Part shown: piece after piece, positions 3,837 to 54,883 of the stretch
How the letters are laid out: every line of letters begins with the position of its first letter
How positions within the stretch are numbered: the stretch's first letter is position 1
Source of the DNA: Leucobacter viscericola
GTDB lineage: Bacteria > Actinomycetota > Actinomycetes > Actinomycetales > Microbacteriaceae
DNA length: 64,000 nucleotides
Direction of reading: 5' to 3'
Assembly: GCF_011299575.1 (NCBI RefSeq)
Contig: NZ_CP049863.1
Span: forward strand, 2,108,001-2,172,000
Translations under genes and position numbers: made by a program
The notes under the pieces: generated by a model
Seen by the model: only the letters and a program-made list of their open reading frames with translations
The model's database searches: none
What the model was told of the DNA's origin: nothing

Positions 3837-6372
3837 TCACGGTTTCCTTGTTCTCTGCAGGTTCGGCATCCTGGGTCTCGGACTCTTCATCATCGAGCCC
3901 ACGCTCCGAATTTCGCGCGATGCCAATAATACGGTCACCTTCTGGGAATCTTGCAAATACGACCCCCATCGTATTCCTGCCCTTTGCGGGAACCTCGGCC
4001 ACATCGGACCGAACAACCTTCCCGCTCGCAAGCACAGCAAGCACTTCGTCGGTCTCATCAACGATAATTCCGCCGATCAGATCACCGCGTGCCTCGTCGA
4101 GCTTCGCGACCTTAATTCCGTAGCCACCACGCTGCTGCACGCGGTACTCTTCCACCGCGGTTCGCTTGGCGTAGCCGCCCTCCGTGACAACAAATACGAA
4201 GCCACTCCCCTCGCTCAAGCGGGAGGCGGAGAGCAAGGTGTCACCCTCGCGGAAGTTCATACCGCGAACGCCACTCGTCGAGCGACCCATCGGGCGAAGT
4301 GCCTGATCAGATGCGGTAAAGCGCACTGACATGCCCTGCTTTGAAATCAGCAGCACATCGTCTTCCGACTCCGCGAGCAACGCCGAAACCAACTCGTCTT
4401 CGTCACGCAGCTTGATAGCGATGATGCCACCTGTGCGGTTCGTGTCGTAGTCGGTGAGCGCTGTCTTTTTGACGAGACCGTTGCGGGTAGCGAGCACCAG
4501 GTAGCCGGCATCACCGAAGTCACGCACATCGAGGATCTGCGTCACCATCTCATCAGGTGCGAGCGCCAGCAGGTTCGCGAGATGCTGGCCCTTTGCGTCG
4601 CGACCACCCTCGGGAATCTCGTACGTCTTTGCGCGGTACACACGACCGGTGTTTGTAAAGAAGAGCAGCCAGTGGTGCGTTGTCGTCACAAAGAAGTGCT
4701 CAACGATGTCATCTGCGCGCAGCTGAGCACCCTTGACACCCTTGCCACCACGATGCTGCGAACGGTAGTTGTCGATCCTGGTCCGCTTGACGTACCCGCC
4801 ACGCGTGACCGTAACGACCATCTCCTCTTCGGGGATCAGGTCTTCCATCGACATGTCACCGTCGTAGCCGTGCAGGATCGTTGTGCGGCGGTCGTCACCG
4901 AACTTTGCAACAATCTCATCGAGCTCTTCAACGATGATGCTGCGCTGCTCCGTCGGCGAGGCGAGGATGCCCTCGTATTCCTTGATCTGCGCCTCGAGCT
5001 TTGCCGCGAGGTCAAGAATCTTCTGGCGCTCCAGCGCCGCGAGGCGACGCAGCTGCATGCCGAGGATCGCATCAGCCTGGATCTGATCGACGTCAAGCAG
5101 GCTCATAAGCCCGCTGCGGGCGTCCTCAACGGTCGAAGAGCGGCGGATGAGGGCGATGACCTCATCAAGGGCGTCCAGGGCCTTCAGATAGCCGCGCTGG
5201 ATGTGAGCCTCGGCCTCGGCCTTCCTGAGGCGGTACTCGGTCCGGCGAACGATAACCTCGACCTGGTGCTTCACCCAGTAGGTGATGAAGCCGTCGATCG
5301 CGAGCGTACGCGGCACTCCGTCAACGATGGCGAGCATGTTGGCGCCAAAGTTGTCCTGAAGTTGAGTGTGCTTGTACAGGTTGTTCAGAACAACCTTGGC
5401 GATCGCGTCGCGCTTGAGCACAACAACCAGCCGCTGGCCGGTACGACCACTGGTTTCGTCGCGGATATCTGCGATGCCCTGAACCTTGCCATCCTTGACG
5501 AGCTCCGCAATCTTCATCGCGAGGTTGTCAGGGTTTACCTGGTACGGCAGTTCGGTGACGACGAGACAGGTGCGGTTCTGAATCTCTTCGATGTTGACCA
5601 CTGCACGCATCGTGACAGAGCCACGGCCGGTGGTGTACGCATCGCGAATGCCCTTGGTGCCGAGGATCTGAGCGCCCGTCGGAAAGTCGGGGCCTGAGAT
5701 GCGCTGCAGCAGCGCCTCAAGCAGCTCCTCGCGGCTGGCCTCGGGGTTCTCCAGGTGCCACTTCGCTCCGGCGGCAACCTCGCGGAGGTTGTGCGGCGGA
5801 ATGTTTGTGGCCATACCAACGGCGATACCCACCGAGCCGTTGACCAGCAGGTTCGGAAAGCGAGCGGTAACAACCGTCGGCTCCTTAGTGCGGCCATCGT
5901 AGTTGTCTTGGAAGTCGACCGTCTCTTCATCGATGTCGCGCACCATTTCCATGGCGAGCGGCGACATCTTTGTCTCGGTGTACCTGTGAGCTGCAGCACC
6001 GTCGTTGCCGGGGGAACCGAAGTTACCCTGCCCAAGCGCGAGGGGGTAGCGCAGCGACCATGGCTGCACAAGACGCACAAGAGAGTCGTATACAGCTGTG
6101 TCACCGTGCGGGTGGAACTGACCCATGACGTCACCGATAACACGGGTGCACTTCGAGAAGGCCTTATCGGGGCGGTAACCACCGTCGTACATGGTGTAAA
6201 TCACACGACGGTGAACAGGCTTTAGTCCGTCGCGCACGTCGGGCAGCGCACGCCCAACGATTACACTCATGGCGTAATCGAGGTAAGAACGCTGCATCTC
6301 GACCTGCAGGTCGCGCTGGTCGATCCTGCCGTGATTTGCTTCTGAGGACGGTTCTTCCTGATCGGAAGTCAT
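3829..6372 (-). CDS. gyrA: DNA gyrase subunit A
   Basis: 847 residues from ATG 6372 ([20 protein letters not shown]), 16 bp after the gyrB stop; earlier in-frame starts at 6420 and 6450 lie inside gyrB. GyrA is the breakage-reunion subunit that introduces negative supercoils ahead of forks. Visible marks: the winged-helix entry [20 protein letters not shown], the quinolone-region segment [14 protein letters not shown], the catalytic tyrosine in AAHRYTE, and in the C-terminal beta-pinwheel a GyrA-box variant QHRGGKG. The position equal to E. coli Ser83 is Thr and that equal to Asp87 is Asp; I would not infer resistance from this. The C-terminus is acidic. Confidence 0.98.
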
Positions 6373-43127: not shown

Positions 43128-44459
43128 ATGGTCGATGGAGGAGTAAAGCTCCGACGGATTCGCCAGCCGGCTCGGCTCGTATCGTTTCTCGCGGTAGTTG
43201 GGGTTTGCATTGCCGCCGCATTCTGGGGTGGCACTCTTGTGCATTCACCGCAGCGAGACGCGCTCGAAACGGCAGAACGTAGCGTGCCGGTGTTTGCGAA
43301 AATCGAGAAGAGAGTCGTTGCTGAGCAACTGCGTGCACCGCTCACATTTGTCGCCGGAACGACCTATAAAGCGTTTGTGCTTGAGGCGTCAAAACAGGCG
43401 GAAAGCGTCGCTGCGGCGGCGCCCGCTGCGGCGAATGCGTCGGTCGACAACACTGGGGCCGCGGCCGAGGCGGAGGCCGGGCAAGATAGGCCCTCTCTGC
43501 CAAAACCGTATGTTCCCGATATTGACGCCGCCGTTGTGAGCGCGGTTCTGCGGAGCCCGGGCAGTGTGGTGAGCACTGGGCAGGTTATTGGCGAAGTGTC
43601 GAACCGACCCGTTATTGCGATTCCCGGTGAGGTGCCGCTCTTTCGCAATCTGGTTGTGGGCACCCGCGGAGAGGATGTTGCTGGGCTGCAGCGAATGCTG
43701 ATCGGGCTCGGGTACTACGGTGTTGACGACTCGGGCGAGATGGGATCAGGCACACTCAACGCCATGGCGCGTTTGTACCAGGAACAGGGTTATCAACTCC
43801 CCTTTGTTGGCGATGGGGTGCGCGGAGTGAATTGGCGAGAGCTGCTTCGTCTACCGAAGCCGACAATGACCGTTGTCTCCGTCGCGCAGGTCGGTGAAAA
43901 ACTGAACGGCGACACACCTTTCATGGCCTTTGAAGACAAACCAGCCGTGTTAAAAACGGAGTTAACCGTGCCCGAGGCCGAGGCGCTTGCCCCCGGTGTC
44001 GCGGTTGGTGTGCAGATCGACTCGGCTCAGCCGCTACGGGCCGCAGTGCACTCCCGCGGAGACGCCGTGACGAACAAGGAATCCGGAAAGGTGACTCGAG
44101 AAGTCGTTCTGCCGTTACCCGAGGGAGTGACGTCCGACAGCCTTAAGGGGGCCACGGCGCTGCTTGTGAGCCTCGACACCGCGGCCGAGAGCCTCGCAGT
44201 GCCGCTCACGGCGCTTCGACAAGACCGGGGTAAAACCTACGTTCTGGTGCCGACGTCTGAGAACAAGGCGGCTAGCGCGGAGAAGGCGGACAAACGCTCA
44301 GCAGCTGGTGGCTCCGAGCAGGTCACTGCTGAGAGCGAGCGAGGGTTTCTACGAATCTCTGTGACGCCGACAAAACAGGCTGCGGGCTGGGTGAGCCTCA
44401 AGACAGACGAACTTGAGGTTGGTGCAGAGGTGCTGGTCTCCAAGTTGGCTTCTCAATGA
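43128..44459 (+). CDS. Peptidoglycan-binding membrane-fusion-like adaptor
   Basis: 443 residues. One N-terminal membrane anchor (LVSFLAVVGVCIAAAFWGG) and an extracellular body. Residues about 180-235 form a peptidoglycan-binding domain (GTRGEDVAGLQRMLIGLGYY then SGTLNAMARLYQEQGYQLP). The remainder resembles HlyD-type adaptors: LRSPGSVVSTGQVIGEVSNR looks like a lipoyl/barrel edge and LAVPLTALRQDRGKTYVLVP the membrane-proximal part. Actinobacteria often pair such proteins with MacB-like ATPases. The stop overlaps the exporter start in ATGA. Confidence 0.85.
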   Translation: MVDGGVKLRRIRQPARLVSFLAVVGVCIAAAFWGGTLVHSPQRDALETAERSVPVFAKIEKRVVAEQLRAPLTFVAGTTYKAFVLEASKQAESVAAAAPAAANASVDNTGAAAEAEAGQDRPSLPKPYVPDIDAAVVSAVLRSPGSVVSTGQVIGEVSNRPVIAIPGEVPLFRNLVVGTRGEDVAGLQRMLIGLGYYGVDDSGEMGSGTLNAMARLYQEQGYQLPFVGDGVRGVNWRELLRLPKPTMTVVSVAQVGEKLNGDTPFMAFEDKPAVLKTELTVPEAEALAPGVAVGVQIDSAQPLRAAVHSRGDAVTNKESGKVTREVVLPLPEGVTSDSLKGATALLVSLDTAAESLAVPLTALRQDRGKTYVLVPTSENKAASAEKADKRSAAGGSEQVTAESERGFLRISVTPTKQAAGWVSLKTDELEVGAEVLVSKLASQ

Positions 44460-46509
44460 GTCATGCAGAACGGAGTACACCGCCCGGTGATATTGTTCTT
44501 CGCCTGGATCATGTCGCACGCCGCTTTGGTACAGGGGCTTCGCTAACTCATGCGCTTCGCGCAGTGACCCTCACGGTTCGCGAGGGGGAGTTCGTTGCAA
44601 TTGTTGGCCCGTCGGGTGCGGGTAAGTCGACGCTTCTCAACATTCTCGGTCTGCTCGATCTAGCAACTTCAGGATCCTATGTGTTGAACGGGCGCAACGT
44701 TGATGAGATGACCGAGCGGGAACGCAACGAAGCCAGGTCGCGAGATATCGGCTTCGTGTTCCAGGCTTCGCATATGCTGCTGCACAGCACCACGGCGGAA
44801 AATGCGGCACTTGGCTTGGCGATTCAGGGCGCCACGATTTCGGATCGTGTGACACGGGTGCAGAGTGCACTCGAGCGCGTGAACATGCTTGAGCGTCGCA
44901 ACGAACTGGCAAAAAACCTATCGGGAGGTGAACGACAGCGGGTTGCGATCTCGCGGGCGATCGCAACGGAGCCGCGCTTGCTGCTTGCTGACGAACCGAC
45001 GGGAGCGCTTGATACCGAGAACTCAAAGAACATCATTGCGTATCTGCAGGAACTGAACCGTGCGGGTATGACGGTCGTCGTTATCACACACGACCCCCTG
45101 GTGGCAGAGGCGGCCGGACACCAGATTCATCTGGTTGACGGGGTTCTTGACGACGGAAGCGGAACTCCCGCCGAACCCGGCGCGGAATTCGTCGCAGGGC
45201 CCGCGAAAAGTTCTCGGTCTGCGATGCAGCGGGTTCGGAGTCTCGCGAGTTGGATCCGAGGTTTGCAGGTGGACGCGGTGTTTCGAAGGAAGCTGCTCGA
45301 TGAGATGGGGGAGGCTATCTCTGGGCACGTGGGTCGGCCAGCGAGAAGCCTGCTGTTACTCTTCGCATTTCTTCTTGGTTCCGGTGGTCTCGTTGCGGCG
45401 CTTGGGATAAGCCAGAGTGCTGCGCATCAGGTTGCTGATCGTCTTACGAAAGCAAGCCTTGACGAGGTCGTGGTGCACCCGGACCGCCTCATTCCGCTGA
45501 GTAGCTCGGAATACGACGAAACAGATCCTTCCGGGGTCGCAGCTCTATTGAAGGCGCTCGAGGGTGTACAAGAGGTTGGCTTGCGCGCGCCAGTTGTCAA
45601 AGGGGCAGCGCGGGTGTCCACTCTTCAGCCGGGCACCATTCCCAAGGAAGTATCGTTCGAGGGCAGCGTTGTTGTTGCGGATGCCAGCCTGCTGCGCCTG
45701 CTGAACTGCGCCGTCGCGCCCGATGGGGCAGAGGGGCTCCTCAGCAATACGTGGGAGGGTGCGGTTGCCGTGGTGGGCGCGGAAGCCGCCGAGTCTTTGG
45801 GGATGCGCACTCCAGCTGATCCAAATGGCACATCTAATGTGAGCGAAGCCATCGAGTCACTCTGGGTAAATAATCGCGAAATCGATGTTGTGGGTGTTAT
45901 CCAGAACCCCGGAAGAGACTCGCGACTTTCGAATGCCGTTGTGTTGTCACGCACCGCGGGAGAAGGCCTTGAGACGAGTGAGCGCTCACTGGTGGTGCGA
46001 ACAGAGGCAGGTTTTCCCGCCCCATCGCGGAGGCAGCGCCGCTTGCGATTGATCCGGCTAGGCCCGCAACGACCAAGATTTCTACCGTGGCAGACCTGCG
46101 AAATCTCAGCATCGGAGTATCCACGGACCTCGGAGCCCTCGTATCGGTGATGTCGTTGGTGTTGCTTGTTCTCGCGTCGTTGAGTTCAGCAACCGCGATG
46201 TACCTTTCAGTGCAGTCGCGTGCTGCGGAGATCGCACTTCGAAGAGCGATCGGGGCGAGTCGCATGGTCACCTGGCGAATGTTCACGTTTGAGGGCTTGA
46301 CCATCGGTGTTGCCGGGGGAATAGCCGGCTGTGCCGTAGGTGTGGCGGGCGTCTTACTCGTGTGTGCGCTGCACGGCTGGACCCCCGTGTTGGAGGCAGG
46401 AATTCTGGGGGTGGGTTTGGCCGCCGGGGCATTGTCGGGTGTCGTCTCATCGATTTATCCGGCCCTAGTGGCCGCAAATGCGTCGCCAGCGGAGGCGATT
46501 CGGGGGTAG
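44456..46509 (+). CDS. MacB-like ABC exporter, ATPase-permease fusion (apparent frameshift)
   Basis: Two reading frames join into one 684-residue protein if one base is restored near 46019-46023 (in the run CCCGCCCCATC). The first part holds the ATPase: Walker A GPSGAGKSTLLN, signature LSGGERQRVAISRA, Walker B LLLADEPTGALD. Then a membrane helix (SLLLLFAFLLGSGGLVAALG) and a periplasmic MacB-type domain. After the break, three helices of the FtsX-like permease (VMSLVLLVLASLSSATAMYL and onward) end in SPAEAIRG, as in intact MacB. The break removes most of the permease as written. With the adaptor and lipoprotein it makes an export system. Confidence 0.85.
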
Positions 46510-46579: not shown

Positions 46580-46631
46580 TTGAATCATCGGATGAATGTA
46601 AGTATATGCTTACTTTGATCGGATGATTCAA
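46580..46631. promoter_or_regulatory. 52-bp concentric palindromic operator over the importer promoter
   Basis: TTGAATCATC (46580-46589) and GATGATTCAA (46622-46631) are the outer arms; GTAAGTATATGCTTAC (46598-46613) is the inner palindrome, with the same centre (46605.5). 22 of 26 half-positions pair. TTGAAT (46580-46585) and TATATG (46603-46608) with a 17-bp spacer form a promoter inside it. It also contains TCATCGGATGA at 46584-46594 and TGATCGGATGA at 46616-46626. Confidence 0.8.
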
Positions 46632-46643
46632 GAAGGAGTTAAT

Positions 46644-47663
46644 GTGAGCTGGCCAACGAGCCCAAAAACCGCAGTTACCCGCAAGGCCTCGATTGTGCTG
46701 GCGCTGGGAGCTGCCCTGTTGCTCTCAGCGTGCAGCGGTGATTCCCCAGCCGAGGCAGAATCCAGTGATGGCTCGGGATCCACAGCCACGGTGACCATCA
46801 CCGACAATCACGGCGAGGTCGAGGTGCCGGTGAACCCGAAGACCGTTGTCGCTCTCGACAACACCGTCTTTGAAACCCTCAGCGAGTGGGACATCAAGCT
46901 GGCCGCGGCCCCCAAGGGTGTGATGGGTTCAGCGTGGCCCGGTTACACCGACGACACGAAGGTCGCCGACGTTGGCAACCACCGCGAACCCAATCTCGAG
47001 ACGATCGTTGCGGCGCAGCCCGACCTCATCATTGGTGGGTACCGCTTTGGCGATTACTACGACGAAATCAAAAAGCAGAACCCGCAGGCCGCCGTCATCG
47101 AGATCGCACCGCGTCCAGATAAGGATGCCTTCACCGAGCTCGAACGGCAGACCGAGATCCTCGGCCAGATCTTCGACCGTGAAGACGAGGCGAAGGCGCT
47201 GAATGACAAACTCGACTCGGCCATTGCGGGCGCAAAGGCCGCCTACAACGGCACGGACTCGGTCATGACTGTCAACACCTCAGCCGGCAAAATCGGCTAC
47301 ATTGCGCCCGAGGTTGGCCGGTCTCTCGGACCGGTCTTCCCCGCGCTGGGCTGGAAGCCCGCCCTTGAGGTCGACGGCGCAACCGACAACCACCAGGGCG
47401 ACGACATTACGGTAGAGGCGATCGCTGACTCCAACCCGGATTGGATCGTTGCGCTTGATCGTGACGCGGCCTTTGCCGCGGCTGACCGGGAGGCAGGATC
47501 GGCTCCCGCGACCGAGCTCATCACGAAGTCGGAAGCGCTGAAGAATGTGCCCGCGGTGCGTGAGGGACACATCGTGGTGCTTGATCCGAACTTCTACCTG
47601 GAAGAGGGGATCCAGTCGTACACCGATCTCTTCAACCAGCTAGAGAAGGCGTTCGCCGCCTAG
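46644..47663 (+). CDS. Ferric-siderophore (or haem) ABC importer, substrate-binding lipoprotein
   Basis: 339 residues from GTG 46644, with AAGAAGGAG directly upstream; the ATG at 46623 has no ribosome site and lies in the operator. Signal and lipobox (LLLSAC). The body is a class III (FepB/FhuD/YclQ-like) binding protein: DNHGEVEVPVNPKTVVALDN, LETIVAAQPDLIIGGYRFGD and ITVEAIADSNPDWIVALDRD. It captures the iron complex outside and delivers it to the permeases encoded next. The substrate cannot be told from sequence. Confidence 0.92.
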   Translation: MSWPTSPKTAVTRKASIVLALGAALLLSACSGDSPAEAESSDGSGSTATVTITDNHGEVEVPVNPKTVVALDNTVFETLSEWDIKLAAAPKGVMGSAWPGYTDDTKVADVGNHREPNLETIVAAQPDLIIGGYRFGDYYDEIKKQNPQAAVIEIAPRPDKDAFTELERQTEILGQIFDREDEAKALNDKLDSAIAGAKAAYNGTDSVMTVNTSAGKIGYIAPEVGRSLGPVFPALGWKPALEVDGATDNHQGDDITVEAIADSNPDWIVALDRDAAFAAADREAGSAPATELITKSEALKNVPAVREGHIVVLDPNFYLEEGIQSYTDLFNQLEKAFAA

Positions 47664-47671
47664 TTCACCCG

Positions 47672-48646
47672 ATGCTCCAGACCACCATCGAACCCCCACG
47701 TCAGAAGCGCCGCTGGCGGGCGCTCGCGACCGCGATCCTTGTTGTCTGCGGATTGCTCGTTGCCTCGCTCGCCATCGGTGTGTATGACATCACGGCCGAC
47801 GACTTCGGCGCCGAACTGGTGTGGATCACGCGGGTGCCGCGAACGCTCGCGCTCGTGCTCGCGGGTGCCGCGATCGCCACGAGCGGGCTCGTCATGCAGA
47901 TGCTCACGCAGAACCGCTTTGTCGACGCAACGACCTCGGGTACGACAGAGTGGGCGGCGCTTGGGTTGCTGCTGAGTGCCCTGTTGCTGCCGGATCTTGG
48001 GCTCGTGGGCAAGATGGTGGTCGCGAGTTGCTTTGCCTTCGCCGGGGCGATGCTGTTCATGCTGATCCTGAGCCGCGTGGTGATTCGCTCGACGCTGGTG
48101 GTGCCGCTCATCGGGATCATGCTGGGGGCGGTCGTGAGCGCCGCGACCACGTTTCTTGCCGCGCAGTTCAGCCTGCTGCAGATGCTCGGCACCTGGTTTA
48201 TGGGCAGCTTCACGCAGGTGGTTCGCGGCCGCTATGAGGTGCTGTGGGTGGTCGCGGTCGTGACGATCCTGGTGTTTGTGCTGGCGGATCGCATTACCGT
48301 GGCGGGCCTCGGTAAAGACGTGGCGACGAGTATCGGTGTGAACTACCAAACGATCCTCGTGAGTGGCACGGCGCTCGTGGCGGTTGCCGCGGGCGTCACG
48401 GTTGTGGTGGTCGGGTTCTTGCCGCTGCTCGGGCTGGTCGTGCCGAATATCGTGTCGATGGTTCGTGGTGACAATGTGCGCGCCAACCTGCCGTGGGTGG
48501 CGCTCGGTGGCATTGCGCTGGTCACACTGTGCGACATCATCGGGCGCCTGATCATTCGGCCGTTTGAGGTGCCGGTGTCGATGGTGCTTGGACTTGTCGG
48601 CGCAGTCGTGTTTATTGCTCTGCTGTTTCGGCAGCAGCGGGCCTAA
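47672..48646 (+). CDS. FecCD-type permease subunit 1
   Basis: 324 residues; starts 8 bp after the binding protein. Many hydrophobic helices (about nine) with FecCD marks: TRVPRTLALVLAGAAIATSG near the N-terminus, TSGTTEWAALGLL, LGTWFMGSF, and in the coupling region DVATSIGVNY and FLPLLGLVVPNIVSM. It pairs with the second permease. Confidence 0.93.
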   Translation: MLQTTIEPPRQKRRWRALATAILVVCGLLVASLAIGVYDITADDFGAELVWITRVPRTLALVLAGAAIATSGLVMQMLTQNRFVDATTSGTTEWAALGLLLSALLLPDLGLVGKMVVASCFAFAGAMLFMLILSRVVIRSTLVVPLIGIMLGAVVSAATTFLAAQFSLLQMLGTWFMGSFTQVVRGRYEVLWVVAVVTILVFVLADRITVAGLGKDVATSIGVNYQTILVSGTALVAVAAGVTVVVVGFLPLLGLVVPNIVSMVRGDNVRANLPWVALGGIALVTLCDIIGRLIIRPFEVPVSMVLGLVGAVVFIALLFRQQRA

Positions 48647-48670
48647 CTCGGTGAGAAGAGAGTGGGAGAT

Positions 48671-49699
48671 ATGACCAGCACGCTTGCGGCTCCGGATGTC
48701 GCTGCGACGGGTGTTGAAGGTGCCCCGGGGCATTCTCGTTGGCACCGGCTGTGGCCGATCCTCGCGGCGCTGACGCTTGCCGTCGTGTTTGCGATCGCGA
48801 TCCTGAGTTACGACAATCCCGCGCCGCTTGGCAGCGCTGGTTACTGGATCATCGTGCAATCGCGACTGACCGCCCTCGCCACGATCGTGTTTGTTGCGGC
48901 GAGCCAGGCGCTCGCCACCGTGCTGTTTCACACGGCGACGAATAACCGGATTCTGACGCCCTCGATTCTCGGTTTTGATGCGCTGTACGTGCTGACCCAA
49001 ACCGCGCTCGTGTTTGTGTTTGGCACGGCGGCATCGAGCCTCGAGGGAATACCGAAGATTCTCGCGCAGAGTGCACTCATGGTGCTCTTTGCGACGGCGC
49101 TGTACGGCTGGTTGTTTTCGGGCAAGCGGCAGAACCTGCACCTGCTCTTGCTGGTGGGGGTGGTGCTCGGAATCGGGTTTGGGTCCGTCTCGACACTCAT
49201 GCAGCGGCTGCTCACCCCGAGTGAGTTCGACGTGCTGAGCGCGCGGCTGTTCGGCAGCATCGGGAAGGGCAACCCCGAGTACCTGCCGTTTGCGGCCGGA
49301 ATTGTTGGCGCGATCCTGCTGTTTGTGTGGCTGCGGCGGCGCACCTACGACGTTGTTGCGCTCGGCCGAGATGTCGCGATTGGGCTCGGCGTGAATTACC
49401 AGCGCGAGGTGCGCACGATCCTGATCCTCGTTGCCGTGCTGGTTTCGGTCGCGGTGACGATGGTGGGGCCGATGACCTTCTTTGGGTTTCTGGTGGCGAC
49501 GCTCACCTACCAGTTTGCGCGGGGTGACTCGCACGCTGAGACGATCCCGCTCGCCATCACGATCGGACTCGCGACGCTGTTGGGTGCGACGTTTGTGCTG
49601 AAGCACGTGTTTGCAGCGGCGGGACTTGTCACGGTGATTATTGAGTTTGCAGGCGGGGTTTTGTTTCTTGTTGTGTTGCTGCGAAAGGGGATGAGGTGA
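48671..49699 (+). CDS. FecCD-type permease subunit 2
   Basis: 342 residues from ATG 48671; a GTG at 48662 is possible. About nine hydrophobic helices. FecCD marks are QSRLTALATIVFVAASQALA, TPSILGFDALYVL, DVAIGLGVNYQREV and MVGPMTFFGFLVATLTYQF. Two permeases plus one ATPase and one binding protein match the YclNOPQ type of importer. Its stop overlaps the ATPase start in GTGA. Confidence 0.92.
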   Translation: MTSTLAAPDVAATGVEGAPGHSRWHRLWPILAALTLAVVFAIAILSYDNPAPLGSAGYWIIVQSRLTALATIVFVAASQALATVLFHTATNNRILTPSILGFDALYVLTQTALVFVFGTAASSLEGIPKILAQSALMVLFATALYGWLFSGKRQNLHLLLLVGVVLGIGFGSVSTLMQRLLTPSEFDVLSARLFGSIGKGNPEYLPFAAGIVGAILLFVWLRRRTYDVVALGRDVAIGLGVNYQREVRTILILVAVLVSVAVTMVGPMTFFGFLVATLTYQFARGDSHAETIPLAITIGLATLLGATFVLKHVFAAAGLVTVIIEFAGGVLFLVVLLRKGMR

Positions 49700-50505
49700 G
49701 TTTGGCTGTCGTTGATGCTGCCGTTGCTGCCGTTGCTGGCGGGGGTATTGAGGTCGCCGGTGTTGCGAAGCACTACGCCGGGCGCCAGGTTCTCGGGCCG
49801 ATTGACTTGAGTCTTGAGCGCGGCGGGGTGACCGCCCTGATCGGGCCCAACGGGGCAGGCAAGTCGACTCTGCTCACGATCATCGGGCGGCTGCTGGAGC
49901 CGGATAGCGGCAGGATCACCGTCGGTGGTCTCGATGTGCGCGTGACCAAGTCGCGGGAACTCGCAACGGTGGTGTCGATCCTGAAGCAAGAGAACCACTT
50001 CACCGCGCGACTGACAGTGCAGCAGCTGGTCACGTTTGGTCGGTTTCCGCACTCTGCCGGGCGGATCACGGAGGCTGACCGGCGCGCGATCCACGCGGCC
50101 ATCGCCTTTCTCGATCTGGCCGGCATGGAGGATCGTTTTATCGACGAGCTCTCGGGTGGGCAGCGGCAGCGCGCGTTTGTGGCGATGGTGCTGGCGCAAG
50201 ACACCGAGTATGTGCTGCTCGACGAGCCGCTCACCGGGCTCGACATGCGGCACGCGGTCGGCATGATGGCGCAGGTGCGAGCAGCGGCCGACGCACTCGG
50301 CAAGACGATTGTGCTGGTGGTGCACGACGTGAACTTTGCGGCTGCGTATGCGGATCGGATCGTGGCGCTCGCCGACGGGCGTGTTGTGGCCTCGGGCACG
50401 CCTGACGAGATTGTGGTGCCGGAGGTGCTCGAGCGAATCTTCGAGACGCCGGTTGACGTGATCCGCCACGGCGATCACCCGGTCGCGGTGTACTACCGGC
50501 CTTGA
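49696..50505 (+). CDS. Iron-siderophore ABC importer ATPase
   Basis: 269 residues from GTG 49696. Walker A is GPNGAGKSTLL, signature LSGGQRQRAFVAMV, Walker B YVLLDEPLTGLD, and H-loop VVHDVNFAAAYADRI. Typical FepC length. Last gene of the four-gene importer; hemA lies convergent 49 bp beyond. Confidence 0.95.
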   Translation: MSLAVVDAAVAAVAGGGIEVAGVAKHYAGRQVLGPIDLSLERGGVTALIGPNGAGKSTLLTIIGRLLEPDSGRITVGGLDVRVTKSRELATVVSILKQENHFTARLTVQQLVTFGRFPHSAGRITEADRRAIHAAIAFLDLAGMEDRFIDELSGGQRQRAFVAMVLAQDTEYVLLDEPLTGLDMRHAVGMMAQVRAAADALGKTIVLVVHDVNFAAAYADRIVALADGRVVASGTPDEIVVPEVLERIFETPVDVIRHGDHPVAVYYRP

Positions 50506-50554
50506 GGGACAGTCCCTCGACGCATGCAGCCCCTCAGCACACCGGGCCTGCGAG

Positions 50555-51982
50555 CTAGCCGCGCACGTCGAAGAGCAGGTCGACCGCGGCGTGGGCCGCG
50601 GGCGCGTTGCCTGCGCGGCCTGCCTCGCGGATGCGCACCGAGGGGCGGTGTAGCAGGCGGCCAGCGAAGTGGCGCAGCGCGGCCTCGATGGCGGCACGCT
50701 CCTTGGCGGCTTCACCGACGTGTTCGTTGCTTGCGGCGGCTGTGGTGCCGTCAGGATCACCGGGCGCCTCTGCTGAGCCACCCCCACCGGGTGCGAGACG
50801 CTGCAGCTCGTCGTCGAGCAGCTCGTACACGTGGCTGCGCAGCGCGACGAGCGCCGGCATCGCGTCGTTCTCGGCGCGCATTGCAGAGAACTCCTCGACC
50901 GCGTCGCGCACAATTCCGCGTGCCTCGGACTCGGCGCTCAGCTCGGCGAGAGGGGCGTGTTTTGCGATCAGGTCGAGGTCGAGCAGCTCGATGCCAGACA
51001 CCAGCTCGGCTGCTTGCTCAACATTGCGGGGCACGCCGAGGTCGATGATGAGGCGTGGCCGGGCAGCACTGAGCAGAACGGTGCGCCCCGGTTTTGCAGT
51101 CGTCGTGCGGCCGCGCTTCGGGCCAGTGGAACTCGGGCCAGCGGAATTCGGGCCAGGCACCAGCCCCGCCACGGTCTCGCAGAAGGGCCGCCGCGCGGGG
51201 CGCTGCGTGCGCGAGAGCAGTTCCGCCTGCAAGATCGGCTCTTGGGCGAGGCTCGTTGTGACGATCAGGTCGGCCTCGGCGAGAGCCTCCTCGAGCTCGT
51301 GCGCCGCGATGGCCGAGATGCCGTGCGACGCCGCGAAGCCCTCGGCTCGCCCCGAGGGGGAGTAGACCGACACCCGGGTGGCACCGCGTGCGCGAAGCGC
51401 AGCAAGGCTTGCACCGGCGTACATGCCCGTGCCAACCAGTACGACCCGCGTGGTGGCCCAGTCACCGATGCGACTCTGCGCCATGGCGAGCGCGAGCCGA
51501 ACCAGCGAACGCCCGGCAGTCTGCACCCCGGTACGGTGCTTGATCTGACGAGAGGTTCGTGCCGCAAACTGAAACAGTCGCTCGAGCTCGCTCGATGTGC
51601 TGCCCTGATCCCGAGCCTGCTCGAGGGCACGACGCACCTGACCGGCAATCTCGCCCTCACCAACAACCACCGATTCGAGGCCACCGGCAACCGAGAACAG
51701 GTGCTCAACCGCGTCGAGGTCCGAGCGGAGCACCAGGCGATCTCGCAGGCGCCGCTCCTCGATGCCGGTAACTCCCGATATGCGACTGATGCTCCGATTG
51801 ACCGCGTCGGGCGAGTCGACGTCGAGATACGCTTCAAAACGGTTGCAGGTTGCGAGCACAACGGAGCCGTCTGTGAGCGTTGGATCTGTGAGGGCCTCAA
51901 CCACGGGCGCGGTGTGGCGTTCGATGGTCCCTAAAAAGTCGAGGTCGACGTTGCGGTGCTCAAGAGAGAGGCAAACTAACAC
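50555..51982 (-). CDS. hemA: Glutamyl-tRNA reductase
   Basis: 475 residues from GTG 51982 (VLVCLSLEHRNVDLDFLGTI), where homology to the family begins; the open frame to 52042 adds twenty residues without family likeness. The catalytic cysteine is in TCNRFEAYLD; VGEGEIAGQVRRALEQA and the NADPH motif VGTGMYAGASLAALRARGA are intact. It makes glutamate-1-semialdehyde, which HemL converts to ALA. An Ala/Gly/Ser-rich insert lies near residues 290-320. It is divergent from hemE with a palindrome between. Confidence 0.95.
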   Translation of the reverse strand: MLVCLSLEHRNVDLDFLGTIERHTAPVVEALTDPTLTDGSVVLATCNRFEAYLDVDSPDAVNRSISRISGVTGIEERRLRDRLVLRSDLDAVEHLFSVAGGLESVVVGEGEIAGQVRRALEQARDQGSTSSELERLFQFAARTSRQIKHRTGVQTAGRSLVRLALAMAQSRIGDWATTRVVLVGTGMYAGASLAALRARGATRVSVYSPSGRAEGFAASHGISAIAAHELEEALAEADLIVTTSLAQEPILQAELLSRTQRPARRPFCETVAGLVPGPNSAGPSSTGPKRGRTTTAKPGRTVLLSAARPRLIIDLGVPRNVEQAAELVSGIELLDLDLIAKHAPLAELSAESEARGIVRDAVEEFSAMRAENDAMPALVALRSHVYELLDDELQRLAPGGGGSAEAPGDPDGTTAAASNEHVGEAAKERAAIEAALRHFAGRLLHRPSVRIREAGRAGNAPAAHAAVDLLFDVRG

Positions 51983-52089
51983 GTCGCGCGGCCAGCTTTC
52001 GTCGAATCGTAACGGGTGCGGAGGGTCGAGAAAACGGCCCAATTCTGCCGTTCGCAGCGGGCAAGATACACCCGGTTCCTGCGAACTAC

Positions 52090-52127
52090 TTCATCAGATG
52101 AACATGCTAGCATCAACATCTGATGAA
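52090..52127. promoter_or_regulatory. 38-bp concentric palindrome in the hemA-hemE divergent promoter
   Basis: TTCATCAGATG (52090-52100) and CATCTGATGAA (52117-52127) flank ATGCTAGCAT (52104-52113), all sharing one centre. TAGCAT in the core can serve as a -10 for both directions. The right arm covers the hemE ATG at 52123. The motif TCATCNGATGA recurs in the iron importer operator. Confidence 0.75.
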
Positions 52128-53235
52128 TACGTTACCCATCACGCACCCCCTCAGCGGCGGTCTCACGGCGGCGGCCCCGCTGGTTCAAGCACTCCGCGGC
52201 ACCCGCCCGAGTCGGCTTCCCGTGTGGTTCATGCGCCAGGCCGGCAGGTCGCTGCCCGAGTATCGCGAGTTGCGTGCGCAAACCTCGATGCTCGATGCCT
52301 GCCTCGATCCCGCACAGGCCGCCGAGATCACCCTGCAGCCGGTGCGTCGCCACGGAGTTGACGCCGCGATCTTCTTCAGCGACATCGTCATTCCGCTCAA
52401 AATGGCGGGTGTTGAGGTCGACATTGTGGCGGGACGCGGCCCCGTGTTTGCGCGGCCCGTGCGCACTGCAGCCGACGTTGAGCGGCTGCGGGCCGAGCAC
52501 CCCGTCGAGCGCCTGCGCGAGGCGATGTCGCCCATCCGCGAGGCGGTGCAGCTGGTAACGGCAGAGCTCGGCGGCACCCCGCTTATCGGATTTGCGGGCG
52601 CCCCCTTCACCCTCGCCGCCTATCTTGTTGAGGGCGGACCCTCTCGCGACCACCTTCGCGCACGCACGCTCATGCGCGCCGATCCCGCTGCCTGGAACGC
52701 CCTGCTCACCTGGACCGCCGAGCTCAGCGGTGTGTTTCTTGAGGAGCAGGTGCTGGCGGGGGCGAGTGCCGCACAGCTCTTTGACTCCTGGGCGGGCTCG
52801 CTCGGCACGCACGACTACGCCCAGCACGTCGCACCGTCTTCGGCGCACACACTCGCGCGGGTGCAGCAGTTGCGCTGGGTTGATCCCGCGTCGGGTGACG
52901 CGACGCAGCACCAGATCCCCACGATTCACTTTGCGGTGGGGGCGGATCACCTGCTCGAAGAGTTCGCCACACTTCACACGAGTGCGCTCGGCATCGACTG
53001 GCGTATTCCCCTGGATCACGCGAGCGCAAGGCTCGGCCATCGAGTGCCACTCCAGGGCAACCTCGATCCCGCGCTGCTGTTCGCGCCGCCGGCCGCGATC
53101 GAGGCCCACCTCAACGAGGTGATCGAGCAGGGGCGAAGCGCACCGGCTCACGTGCTTAACCTCGGCCACGGGGTGCCTCCAGAAACGGATCCAGAGGTGC
53201 TGACCCGCATCGTACGACTGGCCCATGGCGAGTGA
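52123..53235 (+). CDS. hemE: Uroporphyrinogen decarboxylase
   Basis: 370 residues, MNTLPITHPLSGGLTAAAPL. Signature PVWFMRQAGRSLPEYRELR and the later block FAGAPFTLAAYLVEGG are intact. It decarboxylates uroporphyrinogen III to coproporphyrinogen III. No Shine-Dalgarno precedes the ATG and a -10-like TAGCAT ends 10 bp before it, so the mRNA may be leaderless. Its end overlaps hemY by 11 bp. Confidence 0.96.
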   Translation: MNTLPITHPLSGGLTAAAPLVQALRGTRPSRLPVWFMRQAGRSLPEYRELRAQTSMLDACLDPAQAAEITLQPVRRHGVDAAIFFSDIVIPLKMAGVEVDIVAGRGPVFARPVRTAADVERLRAEHPVERLREAMSPIREAVQLVTAELGGTPLIGFAGAPFTLAAYLVEGGPSRDHLRARTLMRADPAAWNALLTWTAELSGVFLEEQVLAGASAAQLFDSWAGSLGTHDYAQHVAPSSAHTLARVQQLRWVDPASGDATQHQIPTIHFAVGADHLLEEFATLHTSALGIDWRIPLDHASARLGHRVPLQGNLDPALLFAPPAAIEAHLNEVIEQGRSAPAHVLNLGHGVPPETDPEVLTRIVRLAHGE

Positions 53236-54883
53236 CGTGGTCCAGTCTGTTGCCGCGGCGGAGGCTGCTCGCTCACGGGGAGGATTCCCGCGGGTAGCGG
53301 TGATTGGCGGAGGTATCGCCGGGCTCGTTGCCGCCTGGGAACTCGCCCGCAGCGGCGCCGAGGTGCAACTTTTTGAGCGGGCTGACCGCTTGGGGGGTCG
53401 CGTGTGTGCTGGGCAACTCGGTGGGGTTCACTTCGACCTTGGCCCCGAATCGTACGCGACGCGCGGCGGCGAGGTTGAGCGGCTGTTGGCTGACCTGGGG
53501 CTCGCGGGCAGGATCACCGCCACCTCCGGGGGTCGAAGCTGGGTGGTGAGTAAAGGCCGCGCGGCGCCGCTCCCACCGGCGGGAGCGATTGGAATTCCAG
53601 CAAGGCCGTGGGGCGCTGAGGCCCGACGTGTCATTGGTGTGCAGGGAGCCCTGCGCTGCACGATCGAGCCGTGGTTGCCGCGGAGTATCGGCAAGCGCGA
53701 GTCGTCACTCGGCGGTGTCGTGCGCGCGCGGCTTGGGCGCCGAACGCTTGATCGTCTAGTCGCGCCGGTGGTGCGGGGCATTTACTCCGCGAATCCCAGT
53801 GCGCTACCGATCTCTGCCGTGCCCGGATTGGCTCAGACCTACGTCGAACGCGGCTCCTTGCGCGCGGCGGCCCAAAAGCAGCGCGGCAGTGCGCGAGCCT
53901 CGGGGGCCGCTGTGGCTGGGGTGCGTGGTGGTGTGCACAGTGTCGTTGCCTACCTGGAGCAGGAGCTTGAGCGCCTTGGTGCGCGGATCTACCGGGAGAC
54001 CGAGGTCGCGGCTGTGCGGGCGCCCAAGGGGGCTTTGTTCGAACCCGATGGCGATTCGGTGGATGCCGCGCCGCACCAGTTCACCCGAGGGTTTGAGGTG
54101 GTGGTCGACGGCGGGCGGGTGCACGCGGTTGACGCGGTGCTGGTGACGGTGCCGGGGATCCTGCCGGTGATTACCTCGGACCGCGGTCACGCTGCGGAAC
54201 CTTCGAAGCGGGCGGCAAGTTCATCTGATGAATTCGTCATGTCTGATGAAGTCTCGAACGCGGAAGCGCGCAAGGGCGAGCGCGTGGGCGGGACCACTGC
54301 TGGGCCCGCTGACTCGTCCACCTGGGTCGAGGTCATTGCGATCCTCGTTGAAGATGAGCGCCTTAACGCGGCACCCCGCGGCACGGGCGCGCTCGTGGCG
54401 GAAGACGCGCGGCACGCGACCCCTCCTATCGCGGCGAAGGCGCTCACCCACGCCAATATCAAGTGGGCCTGGCTGGCCGAGCAGTTGCCAATGAACACCC
54501 ACCTGCTGCGGCTCTCGTACGGCGAACACGGTGCCGATGCGGTGACCCTGCAGATGCCCGACCCGGCAGTCGAGCGCTTGGCCCTCGCCGATGCGGGCGC
54601 GATCCTGGGCATCGACCTACCCGAAGCGGCGCTCAAGGGCATGGCGAGGCAGACCCACGAGATCCCTCGTGCTGGTTCGCGTCCGTCCGCGACTCCGCAG
54701 CGGGCCGCCGACGAGCCGATCGGTGCAGCCGAGCAAGGTCTTGGTCCGTCCCTGCCTCGGGGCATCTTCGCAACGGGTGAGTGGGTTGCCGGCACCGGCT
54801 TTGCTGCGGTCATTCCCTCCGCTCGCGCCTCAGCACGGGCGCTGCTCGCGACGGTGGCACCAGCGCAACCGAGCCACCCCTGA
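53225..54883 (+). CDS. hemY: Coproporphyrinogen III oxidase (HemY/CgoX, FAD)
   Basis: 552 residues, about 80 longer than usual. FAD motif VIGGGIAGLVAAWELARSG, FDLGPESYATRGGEV, and C-terminal IFATGEWVAGTGFAAVIPSA are present. With HemQ and HemH next to it, it should oxidise coproporphyrinogen III to coproporphyrin III as in Gram-positive bacteria. Two extra segments, near residues 320-365 and 485-515, are Ser/Ala/Glu-rich and look like insertions. The first contains a TTCATCTGATGAA palindrome in the DNA. Confidence 0.92.
   Translation: MASDVVQSVAAAEAARSRGGFPRVAVIGGGIAGLVAAWELARSGAEVQLFERADRLGGRVCAGQLGGVHFDLGPESYATRGGEVERLLADLGLAGRITATSGGRSWVVSKGRAAPLPPAGAIGIPARPWGAEARRVIGVQGALRCTIEPWLPRSIGKRESSLGGVVRARLGRRTLDRLVAPVVRGIYSANPSALPISAVPGLAQTYVERGSLRAAAQKQRGSARASGAAVAGVRGGVHSVVAYLEQELERLGARIYRETEVAAVRAPKGALFEPDGDSVDAAPHQFTRGFEVVVDGGRVHAVDAVLVTVPGILPVITSDRGHAAEPSKRAASSSDEFVMSDEVSNAEARKGERVGGTTAGPADSSTWVEVIAILVEDERLNAAPRGTGALVAEDARHATPPIAAKALTHANIKWAWLAEQLPMNTHLLRLSYGEHGADAVTLQMPDPAVERLALADAGAILGIDLPEAALKGMARQTHEIPRAGSRPSATPQRAADEPIGAAEQGLGPSLPRGIFATGEWVAGTGFAAVIPSARASARALLATVAPAQPSHP
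54220..54250. promoter_or_regulatory. Intragenic copy of the TCATCNGATGA motif in hemY
   Basis: TTCATCTGATGAA (54220-54232, a 13-bp palindrome) is followed by GTCTGATGAA ending at 54250. It lies in an insertion of HemY. It may be a regulator-binding site within the operon or coincidence. Confidence 0.35.

Follow-up and report, generated by a model that had tools for sequence, protein, structure and literature searches.

A conserved iron and haem operator in Leucobacter and its likely regulator, a FadR-type GntR protein

A siderophore-type importer and the haem genes hemA, hemE and hemY are neighbours in a 64-kb stretch of the Leucobacter viscericola genome (the window; coordinates are window positions unless stated otherwise, and the genome itself is G000), and copies of a short palindrome, TCATCNGATGA, occur at the importer promoter, at the divergent hemA-hemE promoter and within hemY. 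Is this palindrome an operator through which iron uptake and haem synthesis are controlled together and, if so, which protein binds it? The original prediction had proposed such a shared operator from the window alone, and all five of its copies were found at their positions. Based on comparative sequence analysis, the palindrome is very probably a real, conserved operator of iron and haem genes and its regulator is likely a FadR-type GntR protein, a known family with a known recognition sequence in what would be a new biological role.

The number of copies in the window was dropped as evidence on its own, as it is near chance: five matches with at most one mismatch were found against 1.9 expected, and four of 100 shuffled sequences reached that count. 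The genome of origin (3.70 Mb) contains eight exact sites, with 1.5 expected at the rate of regulator-free family genomes (P = 1.8e-4), and 59 sites when one mismatch is allowed versus 17 for the reversed pattern. The exact sites are upstream of the aconitase gene acn, two htaA genes, the importer, hemA/hemE and two genes for surface-type proteins, with one inside hemY. In 54 Leucobacter genomes, 285 exact sites were identified in 172 Mb (1.66/Mb) against 12 for the reversed control, and 53 of these genomes carry at least one. Since the reversed pattern proved too lenient a control (0.015/Mb in regulator-free genomes, where the motif itself occurs at 0.41/Mb), the background was taken from 274 family genomes which lack both the candidate regulator described below (protein A) and any homologue of 41-49% identity to it. 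Against their 0.41 sites/Mb the excess in the genus is fourfold.

The genes next to the sites were determined for 83 of the 285, namely all 80 of genomes G000 to G012 and three of the seven of G013. A gene was called a target, judged by protein similarity, when the site lay at most 330 bp upstream of, or at most 60 bp inside, its inferred start. On this basis 55 of the 83 sites directly precede iron- or haem-type genes, which encode siderophore-interacting protein (17), aconitase (13), HtaA (6), siderophore-binding protein (6), cytochrome oxidase subunit III (6), SdhC (3), HemE (2), FTR1 (1) and a DyP peroxidase (1). As queries, proteins of the first 51 sites (37 hits), of the window, of Canibacter (g6) and of the loci of A homologues were used, and none was taken from the second batch of 32 sites; the independent figure is therefore that of the second batch, 18 of 32. 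Among 25 exact control sites none was beside an iron or haem gene (Fisher, 1.5e-6 versus 18/32). These controls, which are not a random draw, came from 24 family genomes without the regulator or a homologue at E 1e-30; L120, whose site is at the end of a contig, and L110, whose genome has a homologue, were excluded. In Canibacter, 10 of 12 sites adjoin iron- or haem-type genes, namely those for haem oxygenase (3), FTR1 (2), SdhC (2), aconitase, cytochrome oxidase and a weak HtaA-like match, with the caveat that Canibacter loci themselves supplied the queries for haem oxygenase, FTR1 and sdhC and that one FTR1 intergenic region is seemingly present twice. Shared control of iron and haem genes, the core of the original prediction, is thus strongly supported by comparative genomics through the genus excess and the neighbouring genes as compared with controls, and the genome-wide search which it had suggested gave a non-random distribution in the genome of origin and in the genus (8 sites versus 1.5; 18/32 versus 0/25 neighbours).

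The position and flanks of the sites are also regular. Sites were located 120-124 bp upstream of acn in nine of 13 cases (the others at 74, 151, 151 and 184 bp) and 130-132 bp upstream of ctaE in all six. According to a crude open reading frame caller, 53 of the 83 genus sites versus 10 of the 25 controls lie outside open frames or close to the edge of one. Directly beside the core, 92% of the genus sites and 36% of the controls carry A or T, and the operator is therefore written WTCATCNGATGAW. DtxR-like boxes, allowing five mismatches of 19, were identified within 120 bp of 17 of the 83 sites, as compared with 14 of 1540 positions drawn at random from these loci. At both htaA genes of the genome of origin and at FTR1 of G004 the box sits between operator and gene, an arrangement which would suit an activator placed upstream of a DtxR-repressed promoter. 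These boxes are separate elements; the motif itself is unrelated to the TTAGGTWAGSCTWACCTAA-type box of DtxR/IdeR, as had been predicted. A second copy (at most one mismatch) within 60 bp accompanies only three of the 83 sites, and pairing was rejected as a defining feature of the operator; the symmetric two-copy arrangement is real at both window promoters (see below) but not general.

Which protein could bind this sequence? The operator of LutR, a GntR regulator of Bacillus subtilis, is TCATC-N1-GATGA, with the probe TCATCTGATGA (PMC11734750). It is identical to the Leucobacter motif, and the GntR class was therefore searched for the binder, Rrf2, Fur, MarR and TetR lying outside the search. 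The two systems were compared by operator, not by protein sequence, and differ in their genes: LutR controls lutABC and lutP (lactate use), whereas the Leucobacter sites are at iron and haem genes. No lactate-use gene was found among the Pfam-scanned neighbours, where lut genes were not specifically searched for. The notion of a new regulator site consequently stands in part, as the sequence is that of the LutR operator and a GntR/FadR regulon for iron and haem looks new.

The genome of origin has 19 GntR domain matches, 17 of them above the cut-off. One is protein A, encoded at G000:C1:1855858-1856643, which places it some 251 kb ahead of the window. It is a GntR/FadR-subfamily protein with an N-terminal GntR winged helix (PF00392, 61.6 bits, cut-off 27) and a C-terminal FCD domain (PF07729, 61.4 bits, cut-off 24.3); among the NCBIfam models listed, none reaches its cut-off. 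The assignment to FadR follows from these domains and not from the operator type, since the usual FadR-subfamily operator, TKGT/ACMA with NanR and BioR as exceptions (PMC4494728), is not matched by TCATC/GATGA. Protein A is 80-86% identical to proteins of G013, G014, G023 and G036 and was found in 53 of the 54 genus genomes; in the exception, G048, the homologue is split across two overlapping frames and hemE is also without a match at E 1e-60. Among 299 family genomes, orthologues of at least 67% identity were identified only in g1, g6 and g47 (13 genomes), and homologues of 41-49% in 12 more. Site density was 1.63/Mb with an orthologue, 0.90/Mb with a 41-49% homologue (p = 4e-8 and 4e-4, respectively, against the remainder) and 0.41/Mb in the 274 genomes with neither. 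The recognition helix of A is VGRSTVREAVRSLA, and VGRSTVREA occurs in A alone among the 19 GntR matches of its genome and in its orthologue alone among six in G036. Based on these comparisons, A is quite probably the protein for which WTCATCNGATGAW is the target, controlling a regulon of iron and haem economy in Leucobacter and Canibacter.

The same helix and motif were found together in other genera. Homologues in G070, G093 and G324 (three genera) have a VGRSTVREA helix identical to that of A, and exact tandem sites 21-23 bp apart are located just upstream of the homologue (two in G324, three in G093 and two in G070). The divergent gene is that of ferrochelatase in G093 and G324 (Pfam); the neighbour in G070 is a ferrochelatase by tblastn (82%, L268) and gave no Pfam hit with the first choice of open reading frame. 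No exact site was found upstream of the remaining 41-49% homologues, including L210, which adjoins enterochelin esterase. A scan of contigs with the A family yielded 80 FadR loci, the best 80 of at least 582 relatives. Of these best 80, 79 have VG[RK]ST[VI]REA. An exact site was present in the interval from -260 to +30 of the match in 13 of them (0.28 expected), and one with at most one mismatch at the gene start in 30 (1.1 expected). All 13 exact-site loci have VGRST[VI]REA; two are those of G070 and G093, and the others belong to Paenibacillus, Cohnella, Bacteroidota, Actinomycetospora and more. In seven loci of Bacteroidota and Actinomycetospora (L286, L292, L297, L299, L302, L281 and L293), an exact TCATCNGATGA at positions 3924-3945 of the locus lies 56-77 bp before the FadR match. 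Since the exact-site loci are spread across these taxa, the link between helix and motif is general and that to iron and haem particular to the A subfamily. As judged from these loci, the operator class reaches well beyond Leucobacter.

The signal was approached through the FCD domain. Histidines H153, H198 and H220 of A are invariant in 19 aligned homologues and align with the histidines of structure 2di3. Three aligned FCD histidines are likewise present in LldR (CGL2915), TM0439, CitO and DgoR; they bind metal in LldR and TM0439 (PMC4746285, PMC7674646), and metal helps organic-acid binding in CitO and DgoR. Protein A differs by an additional CxxCP loop, which precedes the first histidine. 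This CxxCP (residue 131 of A) was present in 24 of 24 rows for A (22 genes) and in none of 24 other rows. The AlphaFold model of A (predicted local distance difference test, 79.9; predicted template-modelling score, 0.63) leaves residues 132-145 undefined and the CxxCP loop at low confidence. Compared with GntR/FCD structures, the model gave strong E-values and low TM-scores (best 0.43). The solved relatives by sequence are 2di3, 3fms/3sxy and 7c7e, the first two of which were also found by fold with query-normalised TM-scores of about 0.35-0.42. The core of the haem regulatory motif is Cys-Pro. Haem regulatory motifs are reported in some Irr members (PMC3413700). Protein A is proposed, from its residues, to be a direct iron or haem sensor. 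In a tentative and still doubtful extension, Fe2+ or haem at the FCD histidines and/or the CxxCP loop would switch DNA binding, A would be the actinobacterial counterpart of Irr acting on uptake, haem synthesis and the main iron-consuming enzymes from one 13-bp operator in parallel to DtxR, and the regulator-ferrochelatase pairs with tandem operators would represent an ancestral haem-feedback unit out of which the global regulator of Leucobacter and Canibacter developed.

In the proposed mechanism a dimer of A would bind the palindrome through its recognition helix. Three classes of targets would be controlled: iron and haem acquisition (siderophore-interacting protein, siderophore importers, HtaA and FTR1); haem metabolism (hemA/hemE here, haem oxygenase in Canibacter and, for related regulators elsewhere, ferrochelatase); and major consumers of iron, namely aconitase, succinate dehydrogenase and cytochrome oxidase. 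In the window, A would act as a repressor of the importer and of hemA/hemE by flanking both promoters and covering the hemE start. At the htaA and FTR1 promoters it would lie upstream of the DtxR-like box and could activate. The signal would be received at the FCD domain: the three histidines and the CxxCP loop could take up iron or haem, or the ligand could be a metal-bound acid, e.g. citrate.

Several observations weigh against this assignment. The target counts of the first batch and of Canibacter are partly circular, their queries having been drawn from them. Of the 83 sites, 28 have no recognised iron or haem neighbour and 30 fall within an open frame (again by the crude caller), including the acn site of the genome of origin, which is in the end of an upstream DUF3159 gene. 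Two of the eight sites in this genome precede surface-type proteins and one is within hemY. The absence of A from most of the family rests on at most eight candidates scored per genome. The sole g47 genome, G099, has A and three sites versus three reversed-control matches; G046, a genome 76% complete, has A and no site; and G048 has five sites yet only the split homologue. The region upstream of A in its own genome is without a site within two mismatches, and autoregulation was not found there. Lastly, in G024, where its neighbourhood was read, A has no iron gene next to it, the divergent neighbour being a homologue of phosphatidylethanolamine-binding protein. With regard to the surface-type proteins, the exact sites L010:6658 and L012:6754 lie ahead of large genes whose products carry beta-lactamase-fold/DUF5979 and DUF11/DUF7507 domains, respectively, and are probably surface proteins; a role of these in haem or siderophore capture is possible.

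Might the regulator instead sense a carbon acid such as lactate or citrate, as LutR and CitO do, with the iron genes as targets through the iron need of respiration and the tricarboxylic acid cycle? This explanation, which is compatible with A as the binder, draws on the identity of the motif with the operator of the L-lactate repressor LutR, on the binding of citrate through metal by the FCD regulator CitO (PMC4746285) and on the 22 of 55 targets that are tricarboxylic acid cycle or respiratory genes (acn, sdhC and cytochrome oxidase III). It is considered unlikely, as the commonest neighbour is the siderophore-interacting protein (17 of 55) and neither this nor HtaA, FTR1, the importers, hemA/hemE, the haem oxygenase of Canibacter or the ferrochelatase next to the homologues is concerned with carbon use, and DtxR-like boxes are enriched beside the sites (17/83 versus 14/1540).

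The operator could also be correct and its binder another protein, either a second FadR-type GntR (of the L144/L142 type, or paralogue B) or a protein from another family that recognizes the same palindrome. The following points favour this and count against A. The GntR/FCD gene L144 of the genome of origin has a one-mismatch copy, TCATCAGATGT, at L144:1373-1383, 72 bp upstream of its start. Homologues of paralogue B, a FadR/FCD protein (43-53% identical to A in L257 and L271), occur in 42 of the 54 genus genomes and could share targets. B adjoins a second ferrochelatase in L214, L256, L257 and L271, and in L257 and L271 (two of 10 B-type promoters) pairs of ACATCNGATGT, 14 bp apart and about 150-170 bp before position 4001, lie between the two genes. 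However, none of the 10 B promoters read has an exact site, and the genome of origin has no B homologue at E 1e-40, yet has eight sites. The L144/L142 helix is VSRxSVREG, whereas VGRSTVREA is found in A only among the 19 GntR matches of its genome and the six of G036, which has four sites. A different binder is quite improbable, the search having covered GntR proteins. L144 and L151 were each rejected as the global regulator because their helices differ (VSRASVREG and SVVPVREAIRRLE, respectively), though the L151 orthologue in G036 is 78% conserved. Chance occurrence of a composition-favoured palindrome without any regulator, for which the near-chance count in 64 kb and the 0.41/Mb in regulator-free genomes versus 0.015/Mb for the reversed pattern could be cited, is extremely unlikely and is refuted by the 0/25 controls as against the genus sites beside iron and haem genes, together with the fourfold excess, the A/T flanks and the site positions repeated between species.

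If A is the regulator, how are its operators arranged in the window? At the importer, copy 1 (TCATCGGATGA, 46585..46595) and copy 2 (TGATCGGATGA, 46616..46626, one mismatch) surround an inner palindrome, GTAAGTATATGCTTAC (46598..46613), in a dyad centred at 46605.5 which matches in 25 of 29 pairs and ranks second among the dyads scored across the window. Copy 1 and the inner palindrome are kept in G012 (L087), where the counterpart of copy 2 is degenerate (TGATCCCATGT). The inner palindrome is also partly conserved in G013 (L383, AGGTAAGTATATGCG) and G005 (L079, GATAAGCATAGGCTTATT). Possibly it serves as a further operator, and its spacing rules it out as a DtxR box. The proposed -10 element within the inner palindromes was not borne out, as a consensus scan found no sigma-70 promoter in the importer or the hemA-hemE region; by eye, a possible weak promoter, TTGAAT-17-TATATG (hexamers 4-of-6), overlaps the importer palindrome. 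The importer genes are all on the plus strand and encode a substrate-binding protein of a siderophore-type ATP-binding cassette (ABC) importer (46623..47663; Peripla_BP_2, best NCBIfam relative SstD, below cut-off), a permease (47672..48646; FecCD), a second permease (48662..49699; assigned by position and length only, without a Pfam scan) and the ATPase (49696..50505; ABC_tran). Upstream, a MacB-like ABC transporter gene (44456-46509) looks broken by eye, with a 564-residue frame that stops at 46150 and a 140-residue frame with a permease-like end that starts at 46087 in a different frame.

The divergent promoter is located between hemA (glutamyl-tRNA reductase; minus strand, open frame 50555..52042) and hemE (uroporphyrinogen decarboxylase; plus strand, 52123..53235). 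As homology of hemA begins at residue 26, its true start is probably near 51982. Copy 1 (TCATCAGATGA, 52091..52101) has an equal position in G017 and G012, and copy 2 (ACATCTGATGA, 52116..52126) overlaps the hemE start codon (ATG at 52123). Between them is the inner palindrome ATGCTAGCAT (52104..52113), with a possible but unproven -10 element, TAGCAT, in both directions. The dyad, centred at 52108.5, matches in 20 of 29 pairs and ranks joint sixth. hemE was matched in 48 of the 54 genus genomes, and in the 300 bp upstream of it a site was identified in eight of 30 loci examined with at most one mismatch and in 24 with at most two, counts which have no shuffled background. The pair in G007, G020, G021 and G030 consists of TCACATCAGATGTGT and TCACGTCTGATGAAY at a spacing of 24 bp, compared with 25 bp in the window, and the ACATC variant recurs between paralogue B and the second ferrochelatase (L257 and L271). 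The hemE operator thus seems old, though its exact form changes. In G017 (L319) a further motif pair, one exact and one mismatched, was observed 11 and 29 bp past the end of the hemE match. The third copy pair claimed for hemY (53225-54883) proved to be one exact copy, TCATCTGATGA (54221..54231), and a half site (..TCTGATGAAG, by eye), both within the gene. An exact copy at this position was found in none of 29 other genus hemE loci, although G012 also has one within hemY (L087). The copy in hemY looks incidental and probably does not serve as an operator.

Bacterial control of iron and haem is usually attributed to Fur, DtxR, Rrf2-type proteins, Irr and a few two-component systems. The nearest in regulon logic are HrrA/HrrSA and DtxR of Corynebacterium, with haem synthesis, respiration and overlap with DtxR in common (PMC12327846 and PMC7337898). 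Their motifs, CMAMCDAAAGKTKGA for HrrA (PMC12327846; compared by eye) and TAGGTTAGSCTAACCTAA for DtxR, are unlike TCATCNGATGA and the proteins are of other families, and both were rejected as binders on motif. The haem-responsive alphaproteobacterial Irr is similar on paper, with Bradyrhizobium acnA among its putative-site genes (PMC3413700); Irr, however, is of the Fur superfamily and recognizes the iron control element (ICE) box, and has no family relation to the GntR/FCD protein A. A GntR regulator of iron or haem was not found in the available parts of the literature searched, with subscription papers outside it, which is not proof of absence. If the assignment is true, GntR/FadR proteins, a family hitherto associated with small organic acids and sugars, would join the classes of global iron and haem regulators, and a scaffold for sensing metabolites, with an FCD domain that in many cases already contains a metal, would have been turned into an iron or haem sensor. 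The analysis yields a concrete operator, gene, regulon and set of sensor residues, and would explain how aconitase, succinate dehydrogenase, cytochrome oxidase, haem synthesis and siderophore use are adjusted jointly in Leucobacter.

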